IMG/VR virus record: IMGVR_UViG_3300025138_000322
Location: 1 to 25,113 of that record
Strand: one strand, 5' to 3'
Source of the DNA: a virus
Length of the DNA: 25,113 nt
The notes beneath the pieces are model-generated. The model was not told where the DNA came from and ran no database searches. It saw only the letters and a program-made list of their open reading frames with translations. This document shows positions 9,217 to 25,113 of the stretch, piece by piece (positions within the stretch are counted from its first letter, which is position 1; every line of letters begins with the position of its first letter). The translations under genes were made by a program, and so were the position numbers.

Positions 9217-11289
9217 ATGGCAAATTGGAAAAAAGTAATAGTTAGTGGTTCAATTGCTGACTTAGCAGGGTTAGAGCTTAGTAGTTTATCAGCTCAACCT
9301 AGTGAAGGAACAGTATTAACAATTAACGATTCTGGGGTAGTAGGTATAAAAGAAGGAGCATCAGGAACATCTGGTACATCTGGTACTTCTGGACTTACTG
9401 GTACCTCAGGTACTAATGGTTCATCTGGTACTAATGGTTCATCGGGTACTGATGGATCAAGTGGATCTTCAGGTTCAAGTGGTACTGATGGTTCATCAGG
9501 TTCAAGTGGAACAAATGGATCTTCGGGTACAGATGGTTCAAGTGGTTCTTCGGGTACAGACGGTTCAAGCGGTTCAAGTGGCTCTTCTGGTGTAAATGGA
9601 ACAAGTGGCACAAGTGGTACTTCTGGTACAACTGGTACTTCTGGTTCTTCTGGTACTAATGGTTCATCAGGAACTGATGGTTCATCAGGTTCAAGTGGAT
9701 CTTCAGGTTTAACTGGTACATCAGGAACAAATGGTTCAAGTGGAACAGATGGTTCATCAGGAACAGATGGTTCATCAGGTTCATCTGGTACCTCTGGAAG
9801 TAATGGCTCATCAGGAACTACTGGTTCTTCAGGTTCTTCGGGTTCAAGCGGTTCTTCAGGTGCTGATGGTTCATTTGGTGGTGCTACATTTGATTATACT
9901 TTTGATACTACAATAACAGCTGCAGATCCAGGTCAAGGTAAAGTTAGATTAAATAATACTTCACAATCTGGTTCAACTGCAATGTATGTTGATATTACAG
10001 ATGATGATGGAACAAGCATCCAATCCTTTTTAGAAACAATAGATAGTTCGACTTCAGCTATAAAAGGTCACGTAAGAATTGCTAATAGAACAGATGCAAC
10101 CCAATTTTTATTATTTAGTATACCAGATTTAACTGATAATACAGGGTGGTGGACAATTGATATTAATAACCAAGCATTTTCAGCAGGTTCACCTTTTACA
10201 AATTTAGAAGATGTTACTTTAGCATTTGTTGTTACAGGTGATAAAGGAGATAGTGGTACTGCAGGAACCTCGGGTTCAAGTGGGTCAAATGGTTCTTCAG
10301 GAACAGACGGAACTTCAGGAACAAATGGTTCTTCAGGTTCTGCAGGAACCTCGGGTTCAAGCGGTTCTTCGGGTACAGACGGTACATCAGGAACAAACGG
10401 TTCTTCAGGTACAGATGGCTCAAGTGGTTCTTCAGGATCAAGTGGTGTAAATGGAACAAGTGGTACCTCAGGTACAACTGGTACTTCTGGATCTAGTGGT
10501 TCTTCAGGAATAAATGGAACAAGTGGTACAGATGGTTCTTCGGGATCAAGTGGAGTAACTGGTTCTTCAGGAACAGATGGAACTTCAGGAACAAACGGTT
10601 CAAGTGGAACAAATGGATCTTCAGGAACAAATGGTTCAAGTGGTTCTTCAGGTACAGATGGTACTTCAGGAACTAATGGTTCAAGTGGAACTAATGGTTC
10701 AAGTGGAACAAATGGATCTTCGGGTACAGATGGTTCAAGTGGTTCTTCGGGTACAGATGGTTCTTCGGGATCTAGTGGATTATTAAGTTTAACTGGAACA
10801 ACTACAAATGGTGTAATAACACTAGCAGCTTCAGGGGCGCCTAATGCCGATGTAAATGCTAGAATGGTATTTGATGCAGATGGTGGACATCTTTCAAATA
10901 CTGGTCTATTAACAATTACAGGTGATGAAATTGTAACAGGTAACTTAACAGTACAAGGTACAGCATCTTTCCAAAATTCAGAAAACTTATTAGTTAAAGA
11001 TAGATTTATATTATTAGCTTCAGGATCTGATTCAGCTGGTGATGGTGGTATTGTAATACAACAGGGAACACAAGATTATGGTGATGCATTTGCATTTGAT
11101 GGTTTATCTTCATTAAGATGGGGAATAACTAGTTCATTCCATGCAACGGGATCAGCATTTACTCCAGATGCATTTATGGCAACTGTAGTTGTTGGAACAA
11201 CTAATGACCCAGATGATACACCTGCGAGATATGATAAAGAAGGAAATATATTTATTGCTGATAATTCAGATATTTATATTTATTCTTAA
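9217..11289 (+). CDS. Collagen-like fibre protein (690 residues)
   Basis: This is a modular surface fibre. Residues 1-47 are an N-terminal domain (MANWKKVIVSGSIADL...) shared with the 1511-residue protein. Residues 49-218 are a collagen-like block of GSSG, GTSG, GTNG and GTDG units. Residues 219-345 are a compact domain (FGGATFDYTF ... WWTIDINNQAFSAGSPF) also shared with the larger protein. Residues 346-521 are a second collagen-like block. Residues 522-690 form a unique C-terminal domain (LTVQGTASFQNSENLLVKDRFILLASGS) of the kind found at tips of phage fibres. The repeats are Gly-X-Y-like but nearly proline-free and use Ser, Thr, Asn and Asp, so a proline-stabilised triple helix is not expected. 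I infer a tail-fibre or decoration role; the exact virion location is unknown. Confidence 0.85.
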   Translation: MANWKKVIVSGSIADLAGLELSSLSAQPSEGTVLTINDSGVVGIKEGASGTSGTSGTSGLTGTSGTNGSSGTNGSSGTDGSSGSSGSSGTDGSSGSSGTNGSSGTDGSSGSSGTDGSSGSSGSSGVNGTSGTSGTSGTTGTSGSSGTNGSSGTDGSSGSSGSSGLTGTSGTNGSSGTDGSSGTDGSSGSSGTSGSNGSSGTTGSSGSSGSSGSSGADGSFGGATFDYTFDTTITAADPGQGKVRLNNTSQSGSTAMYVDITDDDGTSIQSFLETIDSSTSAIKGHVRIANRTDATQFLLFSIPDLTDNTGWWTIDINNQAFSAGSPFTNLEDVTLAFVVTGDKGDSGTAGTSGSSGSNGSSGTDGTSGTNGSSGSAGTSGSSGSSGTDGTSGTNGSSGTDGSSGSSGSSGVNGTSGTSGTTGTSGSSGSSGINGTSGTDGSSGSSGVTGSSGTDGTSGTNGSSGTNGSSGTNGSSGSSGTDGTSGTNGSSGTNGSSGTNGSSGTDGSSGSSGTDGSSGSSGLLSLTGTTTNGVITLAASGAPNADVNARMVFDADGGHLSNTGLLTITGDEIVTGNLTVQGTASFQNSENLLVKDRFILLASGSDSAGDGGIVIQQGTQDYGDAFAFDGLSSLRWGITSSFHATGSAFTPDAFMATVVVGTTNDPDDTPARYDKEGNIFIADNSDIYIYS
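9361..9870 (+). repeat. Collagen-like repeat block A1
   Basis: Short degenerate units encode GTSG, GSSG, GTNG and GTDG tetrapeptides in the first collagen-like gene. Synonymous codons vary (TCA, TCT, TCG, AGT for Ser), so the block is ancient enough to have drifted or is selected against exact identity. Confidence 0.9.
10252..10779 (+). repeat. Collagen-like repeat block A2
   Basis: This is the second block of GSSG/GTNG/GTDG units in the same gene, after the shared central domain. Long near-identical nucleotide runs are shared with the blocks at 11971 and 13366, giving ample substrate for recombination or slippage. Confidence 0.9.
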
Positions 11290-11823: not shown

Positions 11824-14800
11824 ATGCCAAATTGGAAAAAAGTAATCATCAGTGGATCTAATGCTGATCTAAATGAATTAAAACTATCAGGTCTTTCAAC
11901 CCAAGGATCTGAAAACACAACCCTTGTAATTAATAGTAGTGGTGTAGTAGGTACTAGAGAAAATGCAGCTTCTAGTGGCTCATCAGGCTCATCAGGCTCA
12001 TCAGGGTCTTCAGGTGTAAATGGTTCATCAGGTACTAATGGTTCATCAGGTACTAATGGTTCATCAGGTTCAAGTGGCTCTTCAGGTACAACTGGTACAG
12101 ATGGTACTTCAGGTACTAATGGTTCAAGTGGTTCATCAGGAATAAATGGAACAAGTGGTACAGATGGTTCTTCGGGATCAAGTGGAACAAGTGGTTCATC
12201 TGGTTCTTCAGGCACATCTGGTACAACAGGGACTTCTGGGTCCTCGGGATCAAGTGGAACAAATGGTTCAAGTGGCTCATCAGGAACAACTGGTACCTCA
12301 GGTACTAATGGTTCATCTGGTACTAATGGTTCATCAGGAACAAATGGTTCAAGCGGATCATCAGGAACAGATGGAACTTCAGGTACAAATGGCTCTTCAG
12401 GTACAGATGGTTCAAGTGGCTCTTCAGGATCAAGTGGTTCAAGTGGAATTTCTGGTACATCGGGATCAAGTGGTTCATCTGGTTCTTCTGGTACAACTGG
12501 TACTTCAGGTACAACAGGAACTTCTGGATCATCAGGTTCAAGTGGCTCTTCAGGTACAAATGGTTCTTCAGGTACAGATGGAACATCAGGAACTAATGGT
12601 AGTTCAGGTTCATCAGGAACAGATGGAACTTCAGGTACAAATGGCTCTTCAGGTACAAATGGCTCTTCAGGAACAAACGGTTCTTCAGGAACAGATGGTT
12701 CTTCAGGAACAGATGGTACATCAGGAACAAACGGTTCTTCAGGAACAAATGGTTCAAGTGGTTCTTCAGGTACAGATGGCTCAAGTGGCTCTTCAGGAAC
12801 AAATGGTTCTTCAGGTACAAACGGCTCAAGTGGTACAAGTGGCTCTTCAGGTACAACTGGTACTTCTGGATCTAGTGGTTCAAGTGGTACAAACGGTTCT
12901 TCAGGATCTTCAGGTAGTTCAGGTAGTAACGGCTCTTCAGGATCAAGTGGATCTAGTGGTTCATCTGGTTCTTCGGGACAAGATGGTAACTTTGGTGGTG
13001 CTACTTTTAATTATACTTTTGAAACTAATACCAATGTTGGGGCAGACCCAGGTGCTGGAGATATAAGATTAAATAGCTCTACACAAAATGCAGCAACTAT
13101 ATCGGCTATAAGTCAAACAACAGAAGATGGTGATAATATACAAGAGTTTTTAGAATCTATAGATGCCTCAACATCAGCCGTAAAAGGTCATATGAGAATG
13201 GCAGATAAATTCTCCCCAGAAAATTTTATATTATTTTCAATATCAAACTTAACAGACATAGGTACATATTGGACAATAAATATAAATGAACAAGCATCAT
13301 CAGCAGCTTCACCTTTTAGTGCTAATGAAGCAATAATTGTTTCTTTCGCTTTAGTAGGTGATAGAGGGGATAATGGTTCTTCAGGAACAAGTGGTTCATC
13401 AGGATCAAGTGGGTCTAATGGTTCATCAGGATCTTCAGGAACAAATGGTTCAAGTGGCTCTTCTGGTTCTTCAGGAACAGATGGCTCTTCAGGCTCAAGT
13501 GGCTCAAGCGGATCTTCAGGTACTAACGGTTCAAGCGGCTCTTCAGGTACTAATGGTTCATCTGGTACAAATGGCTCATCAGGAACAAATGGTTCTTCAG
13601 GCTCAAGTGGCTCAAGCGGCTCTTCAGGTACTAATGGCTCATCCGGAACAAACGGGTCTTCAGGTACAAATGGTAGTTCAGGTTCATCTGGTACTAATGG
13701 TTCATCTGGAACAAATGGCTCAAGCGGATCTTCAGGTACTAATGGTTCATCAGGAACAAACGGTTCATCCGGCTCTTCAGGTACAAATGGTTCATCAGGT
13801 ACAAATGGTTCAAGCGGATCATCAGGAACAGATGGAACTTCTGGTTCAAGCGGTTCAAGCGGCTCAAGCGGTTCAAGCGGCTCTTCAGGCACAACTGGTA
13901 CTTCAGGTACAAGTGGTGTTTCGGGCTCTTCAGGCTCTTCAGGCTCTTCTGGTTCTAATGGCTCGTCAGGTACTTCAGGTTCAAGTGGAACATCTGGTTC
14001 TTCAGGAACATCTGGTTCTTCAGGAACTTCTGGATCAAGCGGTTCAAGCGGTTCTTCGGGCACAACTGGTACTTCAGGTACAAGTGGTAATACAGGAACA
14101 TCTGGCTCAAGTGGCTCATCAGGTTCTTCAGGAGTAAATGGAACAAGTGGCTCATCAGGAGTAAACGGAACAAGTGGTTCTAGTGGTACAAGTGGAGTAA
14201 ATGGTAGTTCAGGTTCAAGTGGAGTAAATGGTAGTTCAGGTTCAAGTGGAACAAATGGCTCAGCAACAATTTCAAATAATGTTGATAATAGAGTATTAAC
14301 AGCTACTGGAACATCAACAATTAATGGTGAATCTAATCTTACTTTTAATGGATCATTACTATCAGTAACTGGTTGTCTTTCTGCAACTGGAAGAATAAAC
14401 TTTGGAACAGATAATGACCAATTAGGTTCATGTGCTTCTATATTAGGTGGAGAACTTAATACAATAATTATGGGTGCTAGCCATTCTACAATAGGAGGTG
14501 GTTTTAAAAATACTGCATCAAATGCAAGTACAGATTGTACTTTTATAGGAGGAGGATGTGGTAATAAGGTAGCAAGCCAATATAATATAGTAGTAGGTGG
14601 TCAAAATAACTCTTCTGCAAATAATTATGCAGCTATAGTTGGTGGTGCCAATAACAATAATCAAGGTTGTCATGGATTTATAGGAGGAGGTTCTAGTAAT
14701 ACTAATAGTCTTAATTGTGTAACATCATTAATTGGAGGTTGTTTAAATTATATTGATGGTAATGTTAACTGCTCAATTTTATTAGGAGGTAGAGAAAATT

Positions 14801-16359
14801 GCATGTACGCTGGTAATAGTTTACCTGCTTATTGTACCCAATATGCTTTTGTAGGTACTGGTTGTAAAAACCAAATTAATAAATCAGGTTGTCAAGCCTG
14901 TTTTTCAACAATATTAAATGGATCTCATAATGAAAATTTCTGTAATTTTTCTTTTATAGGAGGAGGAACAAAAAATACTTCATCTGTAAGTTTTAGTACA
15001 ATTTTAGGTGGAGAACGAAATTCAATAACAACTGCAGGGTGTGGAATTTGCTGTTCTGGAAACAATTTTATTGGAGTAGGATATTTAAATACTATCCAAG
15101 GTAGTCTACATGGAAGTGTAATTCTTAGTGGTAATACTAATTGTATTACTGGTTCTAATACCTCTAACGATTTGGCTCTTTTGTCCTGTAATAATATGAT
15201 AGTGGGGGGCCAGACAAATAAAATACTAGTTGCTGAAAGATCAAACCACAATGCAATAGTTGGTGGTAGATGCAATATTATATGCACTACAGGACCCAGT
15301 TATGCTTCCCAATCTACTGGAAATAATGTAATTGGAGGTGGTGCGTTTAATTTTATGATTATGCGTTCTGATGTTGGTCAATTTTGTCTCGGAGCTCAAG
15401 GAGGTAATACTATATCAGGAGGAAAGGGTAATAAAATTTGTTGTGTTGGTAATAGTTTCATAGGAGGGGGGGTTAATAATATAATGTGCTGTGCTGGAGT
15501 GCATAATGTTATCGCTGGAGGATCACAAAATAAAATAAGATGTCAAAGGGGTAATTCCATTCTTGGAGGGTGTTGTAATATAATATGTGGAAATCAATCA
15601 ACACAAGGATGTAATGCTATTGTAGGTGGTTTTGGTAATTTAATAGGAGCGGGTGATGCTTGTGTTTATCTTAATACAATTGGAGGTGGTTCGGGTAATA
15701 AAATTTGTTGTGATAGTCAAAATAATTTTGTAGCAGGATGTAATAACTGTTTAGGTGCTGGAAGTTCTTCAAATAATTCAAGATTTTCTGCAGTATTTGG
15801 ATGTAATAATAAAACCTGTGCTGATCATAATTTAATGTCAGGGTATAATAATACTATAGGGTCAAGTTATAATAGAACAGCTATTTTAGGTACTTATGGT
15901 AAAACTGCAACTGCAGATGATCAATTAATGGTTTGCTGTATTTGTGCTTTTGGATCTTTAAGTAAAGCTTCTGGTACATTTACAATTGATCACCCAAACC
16001 CATGTAAAACAGCAACACATCATTTAAAGCATAGTTTTGTTGAATCACCAACAGCTGGGGATAATGTATATAGATGGGAAGTTGATATTGATGATACACT
16101 TCACGGTGAGATAGTTCTTCCAGAATATTATAGATATTTAAATGAAAATTCTCAAGTATGGATTAATCCTGTAAATAATTTAGGTAGAGCATTTGGTATA
16201 GTAAATATTAGTGCAACTAAAGTAAAAATTACAACATCAGACCCTGGAAAATTTAATGTGTTAGTTATTGGAACTAGAAAAGATAAAGCAGCAGTTGAAG
16301 CTTGGAAAGGTGTTGAAATTAAAAAAACAAAAGAAGAAAAATTAAATAATAGAAATTAA
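11824..16359 (+). CDS. Giant collagen-like adhesin/fibre with Cys-rich beta-roll repeats (1511 residues)
   Basis: Residues 1-48 (MPNWKKVIISGSNADL...) and 388-514 are paralogous to the N-terminal and central domains of the 690-residue fibre. Residues 50-386 and 515-814 are GSSG/GTNG/GTSG collagen-like blocks. A strand module (VLTATGTSTINGESNLTF) follows at about 822-845. Residues 868-1359 hold about 25 units of the pattern (hydrophobic)-I-G-G-G-x-x-N, resembling YadA-like or haemagglutinin left-handed beta-roll repeats. About 42 Cys lie in the C-terminal 650 residues and none in the collagen blocks. Residues 1384-1511 form a separate cap domain starting GTFTIDHPNP with LKHSFVESP, a module I know from the ends of other phage and bacterial surface proteins. 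The protein is probably a trimeric receptor-binding fibre or head/tail decoration. Its position in the virion is inference. Confidence 0.85.
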   Translation: MPNWKKVIISGSNADLNELKLSGLSTQGSENTTLVINSSGVVGTRENAASSGSSGSSGSSGSSGVNGSSGTNGSSGTNGSSGSSGSSGTTGTDGTSGTNGSSGSSGINGTSGTDGSSGSSGTSGSSGSSGTSGTTGTSGSSGSSGTNGSSGSSGTTGTSGTNGSSGTNGSSGTNGSSGSSGTDGTSGTNGSSGTDGSSGSSGSSGSSGISGTSGSSGSSGSSGTTGTSGTTGTSGSSGSSGSSGTNGSSGTDGTSGTNGSSGSSGTDGTSGTNGSSGTNGSSGTNGSSGTDGSSGTDGTSGTNGSSGTNGSSGSSGTDGSSGSSGTNGSSGTNGSSGTSGSSGTTGTSGSSGSSGTNGSSGSSGSSGSNGSSGSSGSSGSSGSSGQDGNFGGATFNYTFETNTNVGADPGAGDIRLNSSTQNAATISAISQTTEDGDNIQEFLESIDASTSAVKGHMRMADKFSPENFILFSISNLTDIGTYWTININEQASSAASPFSANEAIIVSFALVGDRGDNGSSGTSGSSGSSGSNGSSGSSGTNGSSGSSGSSGTDGSSGSSGSSGSSGTNGSSGSSGTNGSSGTNGSSGTNGSSGSSGSSGSSGTNGSSGTNGSSGTNGSSGSSGTNGSSGTNGSSGSSGTNGSSGTNGSSGSSGTNGSSGTNGSSGSSGTDGTSGSSGSSGSSGSSGSSGTTGTSGTSGVSGSSGSSGSSGSNGSSGTSGSSGTSGSSGTSGSSGTSGSSGSSGSSGTTGTSGTSGNTGTSGSSGSSGSSGVNGTSGSSGVNGTSGSSGTSGVNGSSGSSGVNGSSGSSGTNGSATISNNVDNRVLTATGTSTINGESNLTFNGSLLSVTGCLSATGRINFGTDNDQLGSCASILGGELNTIIMGASHSTIGGGFKNTASNASTDCTFIGGGCGNKVASQYNIVVGGQNNSSANNYAAIVGGANNNNQGCHGFIGGGSSNTNSLNCVTSLIGGCLNYIDGNVNCSILLGGRENCMYAGNSLPAYCTQYAFVGTGCKNQINKSGCQACFSTILNGSHNENFCNFSFIGGGTKNTSSVSFSTILGGERNSITTAGCGICCSGNNFIGVGYLNTIQGSLHGSVILSGNTNCITGSNTSNDLALLSCNNMIVGGQTNKILVAERSNHNAIVGGRCNIICTTGPSYASQSTGNNVIGGGAFNFMIMRSDVGQFCLGAQGGNTISGGKGNKICCVGNSFIGGGVNNIMCCAGVHNVIAGGSQNKIRCQRGNSILGGCCNIICGNQSTQGCNAIVGGFGNLIGAGDACVYLNTIGGGSGNKICCDSQNNFVAGCNNCLGAGSSSNNSRFSAVFGCNNKTCADHNLMSGYNNTIGSSYNRTAILGTYGKTATADDQLMVCCICAFGSLSKASGTFTIDHPNPCKTATHHLKHSFVESPTAGDNVYRWEVDIDDTLHGEIVLPEYYRYLNENSQVWINPVNNLGRAFGIVNISATKVKITTSDPGKFNVLVIGTRKDKAAVEAWKGVEIKKTKEEKLNNRN
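11971..12981 (+). repeat. Collagen-like repeat block B1
   Basis: About 1 kb encodes nearly uninterrupted GSSG/GTSG/GTNG/GTDG units. The reverse complement of this block reads as an EPLVP-type open frame, a by-product of the repeat and not a gene. Confidence 0.9.
13366..14265 (+). repeat. Collagen-like repeat block B2
   Basis: About 0.9 kb of the same type encodes residues 515-814. GTNGSSG heptads dominate the first half. Longer GSSGSSG and GTSGSSG runs dominate the second half, which ends in several GVNGSSG/GVNGTSG units. Confidence 0.9.
14425..15900 (+). repeat. GGGxxN beta-roll repeat domain, Cys-rich
   Basis: Roughly 25 units follow a pattern such as STIGGGFKN, TFIGGGCGN, AAIVGGANN, SFIGGGTKN, NAIVGGRCN and NTIGGGSGN, spaced mostly 15-25 residues apart. 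Cys occurs repeatedly at the positions after the Asn (for example NKICC, NIICG, NIMCC). The DNA copies are diverged, so this is an old protein-level repeat. Confidence 0.85.
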
Positions 16360-18438: not shown

Positions 18439-18643
18439 ACGACACATTGCAAAAACAATATCATGGAGGATAATAGGAACAATAGATACAATACTAATTT
18501 CAGGAATTATAACTGGTTCTTGGGAAGCGGGTTTAGCTATAGGAGGAATAGAAGTTTTTACTAAAATGCTTCTTTATTTTTTTCACGAAAGAATTTGGTA
18601 TAAATTTTCAAAATTTGGGGTAAATGGTAAAAGAAAATCTTAA
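18425..18643 (+). CDS. DUF2061 small membrane protein
   Basis: This 72-residue protein begins at a GTG inside the preceding gene; no ATG is available before the conserved region. The segment KRHIAKTISWRIIGTIDTIL, then GSWEAGLAIGGIEVFTKMLLYFFHERIWYK, is the DUF2061 signature. Two membrane helices are predicted by eye (about 16-30 and 36-53), with basic ends. The family has no established function. From memory its bacterial members often sit next to sulfate-activation (cysC/cysN-type) or polysaccharide genes, and here it again follows an APS-kinase-like gene. The 14-nt and 20-nt overlaps with its neighbours suggest coupled expression. Confidence 0.88.
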   Translation: MVSYKRHIAKTISWRIIGTIDTILISGIITGSWEAGLAIGGIEVFTKMLLYFFHERIWYKFSKFGVNGKRKS

Positions 18644-19751
18644 TGTTTTATTTTTAGCACCTCACCTTAGCACTGGTGGTATGCCTGCTTTTTTATTAAA
18701 AAGAATAGAGTCATTATCTAATTACCCCAATATAAATTTATTTGTTTTAGAATGGTGTAATTATAGCCATACTTTTATAGTCCAAAAAGAAAAAATAATT
18801 AAATTAGTAGGGGAAAACTATTTTAATTTTGGAGATTTATATACACCTGAAAAAGGTATACATGGTGAAAAAGAAAATATAATAGAATTTTTATATGAAA
18901 AAAAAATTAATATAATTCATATAGAAGAAATACCAGAAGGATTTGATTCATTTAATCCATTTGATAAAAAACTTTTAAAAAAATTATATAGTAAAAATCA
19001 TCCATGGCGTATAGTTGAAACATGTCATAATATGTATTTCCAACCAGATACCGAAAAATTATTTGAACCCGATGGGTACGCCTGTGTTACTCCTTATCAT
19101 GTAGATAATACATTTAAAAACAAACAATCACCAAAAGAATTAATTACTTTTCCAATTGATGATTCTATTATTTACAATGAAACTAGAGATAATTTATTAA
19201 ATGAAATGGGATATAAATTAAAAGGAGAATTCCATATTATTAATATAGGGTTATGGACTCCAGGTAAAAACCAAAAATATGCTTTAGAAATTGCTAAATT
19301 TTTATATGATAAATATGGTTTTACTTATATTTTTCATTTTATAGGAAATCAAGCACCAAATTTTAAAGAATATTGGGGACCATTAAAGGATAAATTACCT
19401 CCTAATGTTAATATATGGGGTGAAAGAAATGATGTAGATAAATTTTTTAAATTTTCTGATTTAATGTTATTTACTTCTGACTGGGAATGTAACCCTATAG
19501 TATTAAAAGAAGCTATATCGAATAATAAAAAAATAATGGCTTATAATTTAGATCATTACGGGGATGAATATACTCCTTATATTGTTCCATTAAGTGGAAA
19601 TGTAGTAGATGATTCTAATTCTTTAATTAATACTATTTTTACACCTATTAAATATAATGTTAAAGAAAACAAAAATAATATTAAAAATTTTGCTTTAAAA
19701 CATATTAATTTTTATAAATCTTTATTAGAAAATGAAACAAAAAGACAATAA
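18624..19751 (+). CDS. GT4-like glycosyltransferase (GT-B fold)
   Basis: This 375-residue protein has an N-terminal Rossmann start, NVLFLAPHLSTGGMPAFLLKRI (STGGMP at residues 16-21). This is the acceptor-side Gly-rich loop of family-4-type glycosyltransferases. The C-terminal domain begins near FHIINIGLWTPGKNQKYALEIA (about 203-224), as in these enzymes. It carries SDWECNPIVLKEAI, where E288 and E296 form the E-x7-E motif that contacts the nucleotide-sugar donor. No membrane anchor is seen. It overlaps DUF2061 by 20 nt and the next gene by 20 nt. The sugar and acceptor cannot be read from the sequence. Confidence 0.85.
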   Translation: MVKENLNVLFLAPHLSTGGMPAFLLKRIESLSNYPNINLFVLEWCNYSHTFIVQKEKIIKLVGENYFNFGDLYTPEKGIHGEKENIIEFLYEKKINIIHIEEIPEGFDSFNPFDKKLLKKLYSKNHPWRIVETCHNMYFQPDTEKLFEPDGYACVTPYHVDNTFKNKQSPKELITFPIDDSIIYNETRDNLLNEMGYKLKGEFHIINIGLWTPGKNQKYALEIAKFLYDKYGFTYIFHFIGNQAPNFKEYWGPLKDKLPPNVNIWGERNDVDKFFKFSDLMLFTSDWECNPIVLKEAISNNKKIMAYNLDHYGDEYTPYIVPLSGNVVDDSNSLINTIFTPIKYNVKENKNNIKNFALKHINFYKSLLENETKRQ

Positions 19752-20832
19752 AATAAAAATAAGTTTTGAATATGGTCCTAAAGTAGAAATTATAGGAAAT
19801 AAACCAAAAAATTATTCTATAAAATTTATTAATGGTTTTAATAATGAAGTAGTACATAAAGATATTATTAAAAATAATATGTGGACTAAAGCTCATTTAG
19901 AATATTATATTCCTTGGATTATAGAAATAGATGGAAAAATAGCCCATAAATTTAATGTTAAAGATAAAAAAGTAAAAATTACATTTGATTCTAAGTCAAT
20001 AGGTGATACAATTGCTTGGATACCTCAAGTTGTAGAATTTCAAAAAATATATAGTTGTAAAGTATGTGTTAGTACATTTCATAATGAATGGTTTGAAAAC
20101 TTAGAAGCATATAAAAATATTAAATTTATAAAACCAGATATCCCATATAATGCTTATGTTCATTATAAAATAGGATGGTTTAAAATTAATGGGAAATGGG
20201 ATAATGGTTTAAAAAACCCAATTCAAGCTAATTCAATACCTTTAATAAAGACTATAACTGATATTATTAATGTCCCATTTAGGGAATTAAACTATGGTTT
20301 AGATTTTAAACCTAGTAAAAGACCTATAAAAGAAAAGTACATTTGCATTGGTCCTAGATCAACAGCAGGAATAAAAGAATGGCCATATGATAATTGGAAA
20401 GAATTAGCTACTAAATTAACTAAAAAAGGATATAAAGTAATTAATTTATCTTATGAAGGATTTGAAGGTAAAGATATTATAAATAAAAAAGAACTAGATT
20501 GGCCTACTACTTGGAATTATATGCACCATGCAGAAGTATTTATTGGATTAGGTTCTGGTTTATCTTGGGTAAATTGGGCATTAAATAAACATACTATAAT
20601 GATAAATAATTTTATTCCATATGGTTATGAATTTACTAATAATTTAACTAAAATAGAAAACCACTCAGTAAATAATAATGTATGGTCAAACCCCCATTAT
20701 GTATTTGATGCTGGAGATTGGAATTGGGACCCAGAATATCAGGGTACTGAAAAACAACATATAGCACAAAAATCAATTACAGTAAAACAAGTATATGAAA
20801 GTATAATAAAACATTTAACTAATAAAAATTAA
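19732..20832 (+). CDS. TibC/BAHT-type autotransporter O-heptosyltransferase homologue
   Basis: This 366-residue protein resembles the bacterial autotransporter heptosyltransferases (TibC, Aah). These attach heptose to Ser residues of repetitive adhesin passengers, using ADP-heptose in the cytoplasm. Family features are an N-terminal beta domain (1-80), SKSIGDTIAWIPQVVEF (87-103, with the candidate catalytic Asp at 92), IGPRSTAGIKEWPYDNW (206-222), GLGSGLSWVNWAL (272-284) and the C-terminal FDAGDWNWDPEYQGT (325-339). In the characterised enzymes the C-terminal part carries four Cys that bind iron. By motif alignment from memory those positions are here Asn314, Val317, Asp333 and Ala345, so the metal site appears lost. 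It closes the cluster and starts 20 nt inside the preceding gene. Confidence 0.82.
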   Translation: MKQKDNKIKISFEYGPKVEIIGNKPKNYSIKFINGFNNEVVHKDIIKNNMWTKAHLEYYIPWIIEIDGKIAHKFNVKDKKVKITFDSKSIGDTIAWIPQVVEFQKIYSCKVCVSTFHNEWFENLEAYKNIKFIKPDIPYNAYVHYKIGWFKINGKWDNGLKNPIQANSIPLIKTITDIINVPFRELNYGLDFKPSKRPIKEKYICIGPRSTAGIKEWPYDNWKELATKLTKKGYKVINLSYEGFEGKDIINKKELDWPTTWNYMHHAEVFIGLGSGLSWVNWALNKHTIMINNFIPYGYEFTNNLTKIENHSVNNNVWSNPHYVFDAGDWNWDPEYQGTEKQHIAQKSITVKQVYESIIKHLTNKN

Positions 20833-21174: not shown

Positions 21175-22932
21175 ATGGCAGAAACATTAATATCTCCTGG
21201 CGTATTAGCAAGAGAAAATGACCAATCATTCATTACAGCACAACCCTTAGTAAGAGGAGCAGCTATTATTGGACCTACTGTTAAAGGTCCTGTTGAAAGA
21301 CCTACTTTAGTTAGTAGTTTTAGTTCATTCCAAGCAAGATTTGGAGGAGCTCTTTCAAGTGGATCAGGTCAATTTACTAACTTAACATCAATTGCAGCAA
21401 ACCAATACTTTCAAAATGGTGGAGCATCACTACTAGTTACACGTGTAGTATCGGCTTCATCTACTTGGACATCTGCTACTAGTTCATTAATCCCTACAGG
21501 ATCAAATGGTTTTGGTACAAATGGAGCAGTAAATGAATCTCCATTCGTTCTTGAAACAATTTCTTCAGGTGAAATAATGAATAATGGAACAACATCAGAT
21601 GGAAATGGTTCACTAGTAAGTGGATCTGTAGATAATGTAAGATGGGAAATTGCTAGTGTTAATAGTGCTTCTGGTGTATTTTCACTTCTAATTAGAAGAG
21701 GAAATGATACTCAAAATAATAAAGTAGTTCTAGAATCATATAATAATATTTCATTAGATCCTTTTTCTAGAAATTATATAGCAAAAGCAGTAGGTGATTT
21801 AACTACTACAGTAGTAACTTCTGATGGGACTACATATTTACAAGAATCAGGTTCTAACCCTAATATTTCTGCTTATGTAAGAGTTAAACAAGTAAATTTC
21901 AAAACACCTAATTATTTTAATAATGATGGATCTGCAAAAACAGAATTTACTGGTAGTTTACCTGCAGTAGGATCAGGTAGTGTTTTTGGTGCATTTGGTG
22001 AGGGAGCTGGAAGTAATGAAGCTACAACAGCTACTAACAGATATTACCAAGATATAGATGCTACAAATGTACAAGGGTTAATAGCTGGTGATTATACTAC
22101 CGCTATTGCATTACTTGCAGACACTGATAGTTACCAATACAATGTAATATCAGCTCCAGGATTATATTATCAAGCATATTCAGCACCTTTAACTAGTTTA
22201 ATTAATAATACTATTGCTAGAGGAGACTCAATAGCAGTAGTAGATATGGTACCTTATAATGCTTCAATTACTGTTGTAAACCAACAGGCTGGAGGTTTAG
22301 ATACTAGTTACGCAGCAACATATTGGCCTTGGTTACAAACTATTGACCCAAACAGTGGAGAATTAGTTTACATACCAGCTTCTACATTTATACCAGGTGT
22401 ATATGCATTTACAGATGCGTCAGCAGACCCATGGTTTGCACCAGCAGGTATTACTAGAGGAGGAATGGGACAAGTTGTTAGAGCTGAAAGAAAATTAACA
22501 TCAGGAAATAGAAATACTTTGTATGAAGCAAATGTTAACCCAATAGCTACATTCCCTAATCAAGGAGTAGTAGTATTTGGTCAAAAAACATTACAAAAAG
22601 CAGCTTCTGCATTAGATAGAGTAAATGTACGTAGATTGTTAATTGTACTTAAAGATTATATTTCTCAAATTGCTGATAACTTAGTATTTGAACAAAATAC
22701 AATAGCGACAAGACAAAATTTCTTAACGCAAGTTAATCCTTATTTAGAATCAGTACAACAAAGACAGGGATTATATGCCTTTAAGGTAGTAATGGATGAA
22801 AGTAATAACACACCAGATGTTATAGATAGAAATGAGTTGATTGGACAAATATTCCTACAACCAACTAAAACAGCTGAATTTATTTTACTAGATTTCAATG
22901 TATTACCAACTGGAGCAACATTTCCAGCATAA
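21175..22932 (+). CDS. 18: Contractile tail sheath protein, gp18
   Basis: This 585-residue protein (T4 gp18 is 659) begins SPGVLARENDQSF and continues VRGAAIIGPTVKGPVERPTLVSSF, the N-terminal hallmark of contractile sheath proteins. The C-terminal third has RGGMGQVVRAERKLTSGNRNTLYEANVNPIATF, VNVRRLLIVLKDYISQIADNLVFEQN and the final helix-strand element QIFLQPTKTAEFILLDFNVLPTGATF, all typical of the polymerising core. The middle (about 130-300) is the variable outer domain. It is followed by the tail tube gene, as in T4. It shows that the virion has a contractile tail. Confidence 0.95.
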   Translation: MAETLISPGVLARENDQSFITAQPLVRGAAIIGPTVKGPVERPTLVSSFSSFQARFGGALSSGSGQFTNLTSIAANQYFQNGGASLLVTRVVSASSTWTSATSSLIPTGSNGFGTNGAVNESPFVLETISSGEIMNNGTTSDGNGSLVSGSVDNVRWEIASVNSASGVFSLLIRRGNDTQNNKVVLESYNNISLDPFSRNYIAKAVGDLTTTVVTSDGTTYLQESGSNPNISAYVRVKQVNFKTPNYFNNDGSAKTEFTGSLPAVGSGSVFGAFGEGAGSNEATTATNRYYQDIDATNVQGLIAGDYTTAIALLADTDSYQYNVISAPGLYYQAYSAPLTSLINNTIARGDSIAVVDMVPYNASITVVNQQAGGLDTSYAATYWPWLQTIDPNSGELVYIPASTFIPGVYAFTDASADPWFAPAGITRGGMGQVVRAERKLTSGNRNTLYEANVNPIATFPNQGVVVFGQKTLQKAASALDRVNVRRLLIVLKDYISQIADNLVFEQNTIATRQNFLTQVNPYLESVQQRQGLYAFKVVMDESNNTPDVIDRNELIGQIFLQPTKTAEFILLDFNVLPTGATFPA

Positions 22933-22974: not shown

Positions 22975-23463
22975 ATGGCAGTATTAAACCCAAACGAAAT
23001 ATTTTTCACAGCTTTCGAGCCAAAACAAAAGAATAGATTTATCGCTTTTGTAGATGGATTCCCAGCTTACATTATGAAAGGTGTAGGAGCTGTAACCGTA
23101 TCACAAGGAACAGTACCTTTAAATCATATTAACGTTCAACGTTTTGTAAAAGGTAAAACAACTTGGGGAACAATTCAGTTTACACTATTTGACCCAATTA
23201 CTCCATCTGGTGCACAATCAGTAATGGAATGGGTTAGATTACATCACGAATCAGTAACTGGTAGAGATGGTTATAGTGATTTCTATAAAAAAGATCTTAC
23301 AATTAACGTACTAGGACCTGTAGGTGATATCATTTCAGAATGGATTATCAAAGGAGCATTAATCACAGAAGCTTCATTTGGAGATTATAATTGGGATACT
23401 GAAAATGCTGCTCAAGAAATTACAATGACTGTACAACCAGATTATTGTGTATTAAATTTCTAA
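22975..23463 (+). CDS. 19: Tail tube protein, gp19
   Basis: This 162-residue protein matches T4 gp19 (163) closely in length and layout. NRFIAFVDGFPAYIMKGVGAVTVSQGTV, then GTIQFTLFDPITPSGAQSVMEWVRLHHESVTGRDGY, then DWNT-like GDYNWDTENAAQEITMTVQPDYCVLNF are typical of the tube protein that stacks in rings inside the sheath. It lies between its own promoter-like element and a strong terminator, fitting high expression as a single unit. Confidence 0.95.
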   Translation: MAVLNPNEIFFTAFEPKQKNRFIAFVDGFPAYIMKGVGAVTVSQGTVPLNHINVQRFVKGKTTWGTIQFTLFDPITPSGAQSVMEWVRLHHESVTGRDGYSDFYKKDLTINVLGPVGDIISEWIIKGALITEASFGDYNWDTENAAQEITMTVQPDYCVLNF

Positions 23464-23492: not shown

Positions 23493-23519
23493 AGCTTGGC
23501 TTCGGTCAAGCTTTTTTTT
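23493..23519 (+). terminator. Rho-independent terminator after the tail tube gene
   Basis: AGCTTGGC and GTCAAGCT form an 8-bp stem (one G-U pair) capped by a stable cTTCGg tetraloop and followed by a run of eight T. An A-run on the 5' side could extend the pairing. Confidence 0.95.
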
Positions 23520-23566: not shown

Positions 23567-24310
23567 ATGGCTGAATTTAAATTCCCAACAGAAGAAATAG
23601 AATTACCCTCTAAGGGTTTAGTATATTCAAAAGACAACCCTTTATCAAGCGGTAAAGTAGAAATTAAGTATATGACTGCTAAGGAAGAAGATATTTTATC
23701 TAACCAAGCATATATAGAAAAAGGTAATGTACTAGATAAGTTATTAGAATCAGTAATTATTTCTAAAATAGATTTAAAAGATCTAATTGTAGGTGATAAA
23801 AATGCAATTTTAATTGCTACTCGTATTTTAGGATATGGATCCGATTATAAAACAATAGTCAACGGAAGAACAGAAACAATTGATCTTTCAGAATTAGAAA
23901 ATAAGAAATTTGATAATTCTACTATGATTGAAGGTAAAAATGAATTTGCTTTTACCTTACCTTATAGTGATACAAAAATTACATATAAATTACTAACGGG
24001 TCATGATGAATCTAAAATTGAAAGAGAATTAAAGGGACTTAAAAAATTAAATAAAAATTCATCACCTGATGCTTCTACTAGATTAAAATATGTACTAACC
24101 TCGGTTAATGGAGAAACTGAAGCTAAAGATATTAGAGAATTTGTAGATACCTATTTTTTAGCACGTGATGCTAGAGCATTTAGAAAACATATAAGTGAAA
24201 CATCACCTGATGTAGATCTTAATGTAATTCTAGATTCAGGAGAGGAGGTAGTTGTGCCTATTGGGCTTAACTTTTTTTGGCCTGACTTTGGAGACAGCAC
24301 CTCAAATTAG
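23567..24310 (+). CDS. 26: Baseplate hub protein, gp26-like (T4_baseplate family)
   Basis: This 247-residue protein resembles the T4 gp26-type family, needed for assembly of the baseplate hub. ELPSKGLVYSKDNPLSSGKVEIKYMTAKEEDIL at residues 12-44 is the most recognisable part. A helical region (RLKYVLTSVNGE) and the C-terminal VVPIGLNFFWP (about 229-239) also fit. T4 gp26 is 208 residues. The 3' end overlaps the next reading frame by 59 nt at a run of seven T, and the next gene looks like a tape measure. This is the arrangement of frameshifted tail-assembly chaperones in other phages. Confidence 0.75.
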   Translation: MAEFKFPTEEIELPSKGLVYSKDNPLSSGKVEIKYMTAKEEDILSNQAYIEKGNVLDKLLESVIISKIDLKDLIVGDKNAILIATRILGYGSDYKTIVNGRTETIDLSELENKKFDNSTMIEGKNEFAFTLPYSDTKITYKLLTGHDESKIERELKGLKKLNKNSSPDASTRLKYVLTSVNGETEAKDIREFVDTYFLARDARAFRKHISETSPDVDLNVILDSGEEVVVPIGLNFFWPDFGDSTSN

Positions 24311-24572
24311 ATTAAATATATTTAAACAAATCCACGAAATAATTTTTCACGGTAAAGGTGGGTATGATTATAATACTATTTATAATATGCCTATATGGCT
24401 ACGTAAATTTACATTTAAAGAAATAAATGATTTTTATGAAGCGGAACAAGCTGCTATGAAAAAAGAACAATCTGCCGGTAAAACATCACTAGTAAACTCA
24501 GAAGGAAAAATTAATACCCCTCAATTTAAACAAGCTTCTAAAGCATATGAAGGAAAGAGTAGCTACAAATAG
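24252..24572 (+). CDS. Out-of-frame partner of the gp26-like gene, possibly expressed by frameshift
   Basis: This frame is open only after a TAG at 24249-24251 and runs 107 codons to 24572. It has no ATG until the middle of its conserved-looking part (IYNMPIWLRKF), and only a TTG at its 5' end. The likely real sequence is LNIFKQIHEIIFHGKGGYDYNTIYNMPIWLRKFTFKEINDFYEAEQAAMKKEQ, with a polar helical C-terminus. T4 has gp51 after gp26, but gp51 is longer, so I do not assign it. Either translation starts at TTG, or ribosomes shift from the upstream gene (+1 or -2) within 24252-24310 to make a fused protein. Confidence 0.65.
   Translation: MCLLGLTFFGLTLETAPQIRLNIFKQIHEIIFHGKGGYDYNTIYNMPIWLRKFTFKEINDFYEAEQAAMKKEQSAGKTSLVNSEGKINTPQFKQASKAYEGKSSYK
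24272..24278 (+). other. Candidate frameshift slippery site
   Basis: The run T7 is read as AAC TTT TTT TGG in the gp26-like frame and as ACT TTT TTT GGC in the overlapping frame. Repeated TTT codons would allow tRNA re-pairing after a shift of +1 or -2, the only directions that connect the two frames. No computation of a downstream pseudoknot was possible here. Confidence 0.45.
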
Positions 24573-24583
24573 TTACTCTTTTT
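24554..24583 (+). terminator. Hairpin terminator overlapping a stop codon
   Basis: An 11-bp stem (one G-U pair) pairs AAGAGTAGCTA with TAGTTACTCTT around the loop CAAA, followed by T residues. The TAG stop at 24570-24572 lies inside the 3' arm. A promoter-like element begins two bases after the T-run. Confidence 0.8.
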
Positions 24584-24609: not shown

Positions 24610-25113
24610 ATGGCGAGTCTTAAGGAAATTGAAGAAGCAAAATTAGCAGCTAAAGCCCTCAATGAAGAATTAGGGTATTTAGAAGATGCCTTTCTTTCAA
24701 TAGGCCAAAAAATAAAAAATGAAGTTACAGGTCAATTAGAAGGTGCTAGTAAACAAACTAAAGAATTAAGTAATAAATTTTCTACAAACCTTAATAATGC
24801 TATAAAGCAAAATGCTAGCTCTTTAAAAGAGATAACAAAACTCCAAGATCAAATAAGTAAAGGTGTTAATGTTGAAGCAAAAATACAAAAAGAATTAGAA
24901 AAAATTGCAACTAGGAAAAAAACAATTGCACGCCAACAAAATATTCTTACAGCAAATGGTATAAAAATAAATGAAGAGAATATTAAACAACTTCAATCTC
25001 AATTTTCTGTACAAGAAGACACTCTTAATACCCTATCTCTATCAAATATAGAAAAACAAAAACAAAAATCTTTATTAACTTTACTTGGAGAAGGAGGTGC
25101 TAACCTATTAGAT
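24610..25113 (+). CDS. N-terminal part of a coiled-coil, tape-measure-like protein
   Basis: The frame opens at ATG 24610 and is still open at the end of the window (168 residues visible). The sequence is almost entirely helical and charged, with heptad-like patterns: LKEIEEAKLAAKALNEEL, LKEITKLQDQISKG, KIQKELEKIATRKKTIARQQ, NIKQLQSQFSVQEDTLN. Long coiled coils directly after a gp26-like gene and its overlapping partner are what is expected of a tail tape measure or a baseplate-hub coiled-coil protein (the place of T4 gp29). The C-terminus lies outside the window, so length and domain content cannot be judged. Confidence 0.75.
   Translation, partial: MASLKEIEEAKLAAKALNEELGYLEDAFLSIGQKIKNEVTGQLEGASKQTKELSNKFSTNLNNAIKQNASSLKEITKLQDQISKGVNVEAKIQKELEKIATRKKTIARQQNILTANGIKINEENIKQLQSQFSVQEDTLNTLSLSNIEKQKQKSLLTLLGEGGANLLD

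Follow-up and report, generated by a model that had tools for sequence, protein, structure and literature searches.

Frameshifted chaperones set the tail length in long-tailed phages. The tail chaperones of different phages use −1, −2 or +1 shifts, with T4 being listed as an exception (2016 review, PMC5009743), while the training set of PRFect holds 350 forward (+1) sites among annotated phage frameshifts (PMC10885494). Hence, chaperones made by a +1 shift are in themselves no novelty. Some T4-like phages do without frameshifting and encode the short chaperone and a fused long one in two genes, according to Vladimirov et al. 2022 as relayed in PMC10274946 and cited in PMC12846349. The assignment of T4 gp26 and gp51 as the short and the long chaperone is likewise already published and is not claimed as new here. 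For myoviruses, a comparative case for chaperone frameshifting at a T-rich site has been made with the Vandenendeviridae phage Adele (PMC12846349), which, unlike the locus described below, employs a −1 shift with GTTTTT and belongs to another chaperone lineage. With gpG/gpGT of phage lambda, this locus shares the overlapping frames between the tube and tape measure genes and, as predicted here, a short product accompanied by a rarer fusion and a slip site at the first gene's 3' end. However, lambda shifts by −1 on a tandem heptamer, whereas the site discussed here is of the +1 type on YUU_U, opposite to the direction that is usual for genes of this kind, and the proteins differ in sequence and in length (247 aa here).

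What is new is a conserved +1 site in a group of phages related to the uncultured, T4-related phage analysed here, together with an AGGAGG element located 26 nt upstream of it. Both are found in the window, that is, the whole stretch of 25,113 nt of viral DNA that was analysed, which carries the following features in this region:

21175-22932: tail sheath gene, upstream neighbour
22975-23463, + strand: upstream tail tube gene (phrog_4542 tail tube, E=1.6e-24)
23493-23512, + strand: terminator-like hairpin between the tube gene and the putative chaperone unit (pattern match only)
23567-24310, + strand: gp26-like gene with ATG start, 247 aa, phrog_150; predicted short chaperone form (TAC-N or 'G')
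24243-24248, + strand: conserved AGGAGG resembling an SD sequence, placed 26 nt ahead of the P-site codon
24249-24251, + strand: TAG that bounds the second frame upstream (from the sequence)
24252-24572, + strand: second frame as an open reading frame, open after the TAG, with the stop codon at 24570-24572 (from the sequence)
24272-24281, + strand: predicted slip site TTT TTT_TGG C, with P-site UUU at 24275-24277 moving to 24276-24278 and GGC at 24279-24281 as the next codon
24279-24572, + strand: T domain as it would be read after the slip, 97 aa followed by the stop codon; C-terminal portion in a predicted 334-aa protein (TAC-NC or 'GT')
24552-24583, + strand: hairpin resembling a terminator, located where the T domain frame ends (pattern match only)
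24610-25113, + strand: start of a coiled-coil-looking gene, open at the window end, in the tape measure position

The two frames thus sit between the tail tube gene and the tape measure position. A family match of its own was not found for the gene at 24610-25113, and the gene in this position is annotated as tail tape measure in Flavobacterium phage immuto (L001; L numbers denote related loci) and in LIS04. Given the hairpins at 23493-23512 and 24552-24583, the gp26-like gene and the second frame may form a transcription unit of their own. Farther upstream, the window contains two long collagen-like tail fibre genes at 9217-11289 and 11824-16359 (690 and 1511 aa), the second of which has further long open reading frames inside on both strands. 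Downstream of these fibres, the stretch 18624-20832 holds two genes, one glycosyltransferase-like (phrog_2170, E=8e-5) and the other without family match.

A sequence-only reading of this DNA had described the second frame as opening after a stop at 24249, overlapping the gp26-like gene by 59 nt and lacking an ATG before its conserved part. All of this holds: the frame is open from 24252, directly after the TAG, the overlap spans 24252-24310, and the first ATG at 24387 is codon 37 of the conserved part. The gp26 frame reads AAC TTT TTT TGG CCT GAC and the second frame ACT TTT TTT GGC CTG AC, in agreement with the codons TTT TTT TGG and TTT TTT GGC given in that reading. The shift had been narrowed down to "+1 or −2"; the offset is indeed +1 (equivalently −2), and the choice is best resolved as +1 through the slip sites of relatives. 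The T7 run to which attention had been drawn exists in the window (24272-24278), but the conserved signal across relatives is TTT or CTT followed by T and not T7 as such, since several relatives break the T run.

We consider it very probable that 23567-24572 is a single tail assembly chaperone gene that yields two products via a programmed +1 frameshift. The majority of ribosomes would end at 24310, and the short form released there would be the gp26-like protein of 247 aa. We infer that a minority would slip forward by one nucleotide at UUU_UGG (24275-24280), where the P-site tRNA-Phe could shift from 24275-24277 to 24276-24278 while UGG is waiting in the A site. Thereafter, GGC would be read next and translation would run on to 24572, which would afford a long form of 334 aa composed of gp26 residues 1-237 and the T domain of 97 aa. 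The analogy with lambda gpG/gpGT suggests that the tape measure protein would be coated by the short form and that tail tube subunits would be recruited through the T domain in the long form. A programmed frameshift had already been suspected from the window alone, and the homologue comparison proposed at that point supports it with comparative, not experimental, evidence: neither a single in-frame gene nor a separated gene nor a conserved start with a leader was found in the group.

Related loci were collected in two sets. For the first, viral contigs were searched with the second frame, which provided 80 loci, to which Flavobacterium phage immuto and Microcystis phage Mel-JY01 were added. 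Because this set was chosen by the second frame, another one was fetched by alignment of gp26 alone and is hence not selected for the second frame. The two sets share some contigs, and counts therefore refer to 94 representatives with less than 88% DNA identity. One locus (L171, 2001-2744), whose gp26 frame is broken early by an assembly error or as a decayed copy, was left out of the counts. The second frame lies at +1 to gp26 in all 169 readable related loci. The offset was +1 throughout the first set of 80 loci and in immuto and Mel-JY01, and again in 79 of 79 readable loci of the set obtained with gp26. It is also found at +1 on MAG contigs labelled Flavobacteriales, Winogradskyella, Saprospiraceae and similar; from these labels, the hosts are probably Bacteroidota. 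The +1 pattern is repeated in the distant phages RM378 (TTT TTT TGG), SP-15, LIS04, GXN1 and LR756508.

The second frame overlaps the first, is conserved at the protein level and lacks a start of its own. Within 50 codons after the slip, the 94 representatives contain no stop in the +1 frame, whereas the gp26 frame has 651 and the third frame 336. With 169 loci alike and no stop in the second frame, the arrangement is well beyond chance. In an earlier set of 48 representatives, in which synonymous sites are near saturation, pN/pS was 0.40 for the T frame and 0.47 for gp26, uncorrected for saturation; the former value indicates purifying selection in the T frame. The upstream stop of the T frame is at most four codons away from the shift in 17 of the 94 representatives, and gp26 stops 3-10 codons downstream of it. 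With the T-frame stop up to four codons before the shift and a gp26 stop 3-4 codons after it, the two frames must be joined within about seven codons around TTT TTT TGG.

At this place, the codon assigned to the P site is TTT in 87 representatives and CTT in seven, while TTC does not occur. The A-site codon begins with T in 94 of 94 cases (TGG 87, TAC 4, TTC 3). Hence, YUU_U, the P-site pattern of the release factor 2 type, is present in every representative, as is required if a single tRNA is to slip by +1 from YUU_U to UUU. The missing TTC accounts for 13% of Phe codons (p about 6e-6, kinship ignored), and the Leu replacements are all CTT (7/7), a codon that makes up 18% of Leu codons (p about 5e-6, kinship ignored). 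A canonical −1 heptamer (X XXY YYZ) does not describe the group, in all loci of which the second frame is at +1; an offset of −1 was seen only in cyanophages, phiM12, HTVC008M, Atu_ph07 and LR756511. RNA structure near the site was not supported: the consensus fold reaches −7.1 kcal/mol, consists mostly of G-U pairs and shows no compensatory pair changes.

Taken by itself, the T7 run of the window would be compatible with a −2 shift and with some slippage of RNA polymerase as well. A programmed −2 frameshift on the U7 run would resemble that documented for phage Mu (PMC5009743) and give a protein with one extra Phe (335 aa). In most loci, U7 allows perfect re-pairing of tRNA-Phe, and at TTT CTT TGG the −2 re-pairing on UUC is no worse than the +1 re-pairing on UUU. 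Other sites speak against −2, namely TTC TTT TGG in L070 and L074, AAC TTT CTA (UUU_CUA) in L085 and TTC TTT CGT in L087 (phage GXN1). There, tRNA-Phe re-pairs with UUU or UUC after +1 but not after −2, which needs a mismatch at the middle codon position. Moreover, the first U of the A-site codon, invariant in the 94 representatives, is required by +1 but not by a −2 slip of the P-site tRNA, and the −2 shift is accordingly held to be improbable. Slippage of RNA polymerase on the T7 run, by which the frames would be joined in the transcript, is favoured by the T7-T8 run that most loci have. However, the run is broken in loci with TTT CTT TGG and TTT CTT TAC, and the same offset persists without a long run in TTTCTTT (7/94, including immuto), TTCTTTT (L070/L074) and the T3 of GXN1, so that this explanation appears very improbable. 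Homopolymers are also prone to sequencing errors, and the two frames could conceivably be a former single gene that lacks a base of the T run through error or decay. Against this speak the recurrence of the offset in independent metagenome assemblies, MAG contigs and the sequenced isolates immuto, Mel-JY01, RM378 and SP-15, the purifying selection acting on the T frame, and the fact that relatives with one continuous frame were not found; the likelihood of this scenario is close to negligible.

The remaining alternative, an independent gene translated by re-initiation or from a weak start, draws on features of the window that count against the frameshift: its second frame has TTG codons at 24252, 24261 and 24288, and AGGAGG lies 3 nt before the first of them. 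Furthermore, short separate open reading frames are annotated here in GenBank records, and cyanophage gp51 has an ATG just past the gp26 stop. Yet, none of the three TTG codons is conserved in relatives, and in L017 and L018 a stop separates the T domain from any TTG farther upstream. For 30 of 94 representatives, the stretch from the upstream stop to T codon 12 is free of ATG, GTG and TTG, and in L045 the entire T frame lacks a start codon. Initiation at the next ATG, codon 37, would truncate the conserved domain. A separate gene is therefore a very unlikely explanation, and the programmed +1 frameshift is retained as the preferred one.

The AGGAGG at 24243-24248 was considered as the start signal for TTG 24252 and rejected in this role, as AGGAGG is conserved but TTG is not. 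The element is conserved at the RNA level and at a fixed distance from the slip codon (window 24243-24248; L003-L225). An SD-like hexamer occurs at −42 to −28 in 57 of the 94 representatives versus 8.3 ± 1.9 (maximum 13) in 60 synonymous shuffles, and the two Glu codons at AGGAGG are GAG in 56/60 and 43/46 cases versus 22% in the gene body (kinship ignored). Bacteroidota ribosomes hardly use SD sequences for initiation, and a distance of 26 nt from the P-site codon is, to our knowledge, beyond the reach of SD-type stimulators. As a speculative and rather doubtful possibility, AGGAGG at this fixed distance could represent a new type of +1 stimulator in Bacteroidota ribosomes that acts beyond the known SD reach.

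The gp26-like protein of the window matches the phrog_150 baseplate hub family over residues 4-163 (E=1.6e-7). It gave no match to PF12322, which is matched by the relatives SP-15, LR756508 and LIS04. Gp26 and the T domain were modelled separately. The AlphaFold model of gp26 (pLDDT 89) displays a whole-length fold match to the hub protein of SP-15 (TM 0.77). Among 806 solved chains, residues 1-95 fit best to 3klu (Z 6.1), which is B. subtilis YqbN, a prophage tail assembly chaperone, and to 2ob9 (Z 5.5), the tail assembly chaperone of HK97, followed by 5ir0 (Z 4.0) and others at 2.9 or less; with all Z below 8, these matches are modest and alone not proof. The resemblance of the model to tail assembly chaperones appears modest but specific. 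For the T domain, a helical hairpin with a core pLDDT of about 90 is predicted, for which neither a fold match better than E=1 among viral models nor a match among solved structures was obtained. A sequence search of the PDB gave no usable match. When the T domain of the window was compared by profile with the extension of T4 gp51, the link proved too weak for a claim (hhalign probability 0.4%, E=0.08 over full length). The cyanophage T domain reaches hhalign probabilities of 84-87% with the same extension. In Mel-JY01, the fusion stretches the phrog_150 match to 274/282.

In annotated relatives, only the last 36 codons of the second frame are recorded for immuto (L001, 3974-4234) and none of it for LIS04 (L088, 3708-3939). 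In SP-15 (L086, 3741-3960), it is annotated partly or not at all. As the second frame is missed or shortened in annotations, the predicted long chaperone is absent from databases.

Like the gp26-like protein of the window, its T4 counterpart belongs to phrog_150. Coverage of this family (gp51 3-281, gp26 10-236) implies that T4 gp51 consists of a gp26-like body and a C-terminal extension. Unlike here, the two T4 forms stem from separate genes on opposite strands, and the earlier remark that frameshifting is not established for T4 gp26 therefore stands. Cyanophages and phiM12 likewise have the gp26 body and its extension in different, overlapping frames ahead of tail genes, but the offset is −1 and gp51 has its own ATG. 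The −1 overlap is seen in P-SSM2, S-PM2, HTVC008M and phiM12. P-SSM2 (L116) and S-PM2 (L117) contain T TTT TTC, which is preceded by the SD-like GGAGGG at a distance of about 9 nt, and phiM12 (L119) contains T TTT TTT. The annotated gp51 of P-SSM2, S-PM2 and phiM12 (53-57 aa) probably corresponds to a T domain that is produced by −1 frameshifting. In Atu_ph07 (L089) and LR756511 (L090), the gp26-like gene ends in a canonical T TTT TTC, and a T-like domain lies at −1 to it. As judged from the fit of these two loci to −1, the shift direction has switched within the family.

Beyond tail chaperones, the site resembles the release factor 2 site CUU_UGA of prfB, which also relies on a P-site slip on YUU_U; seven representatives have exactly CUU_U. 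In contrast to the stop codon in the A site and the SD sequence 3 nt from the slip codon in prfB, the A-site codons here are sense codons (UGG, UAC or UUC) and the distance is 26 nt. The +1 shift with UUU before a sense codon is further shared with influenza PA-X (UCC_UUU_CGU), whose UUU_CGU +1 site was shown by mass spectrometry (PMC3498833), and GXN1 has UUC_UUU_CGU at the homologous place, although PA-X involves eukaryotic ribosomes and unrelated genes. As a simple natural site for the proposed +1 slip that is strongly conserved and places a sense codon in the A site, YUU_UGG could be useful for studying +1 stimulation. Taken together, T4-type gp26 genes would take part in frameshifting outside the T-evens, and the family appears to have arrived at three solutions: a +1 slip as proposed here, a −1 slip in cyanophages and two genes in T4.
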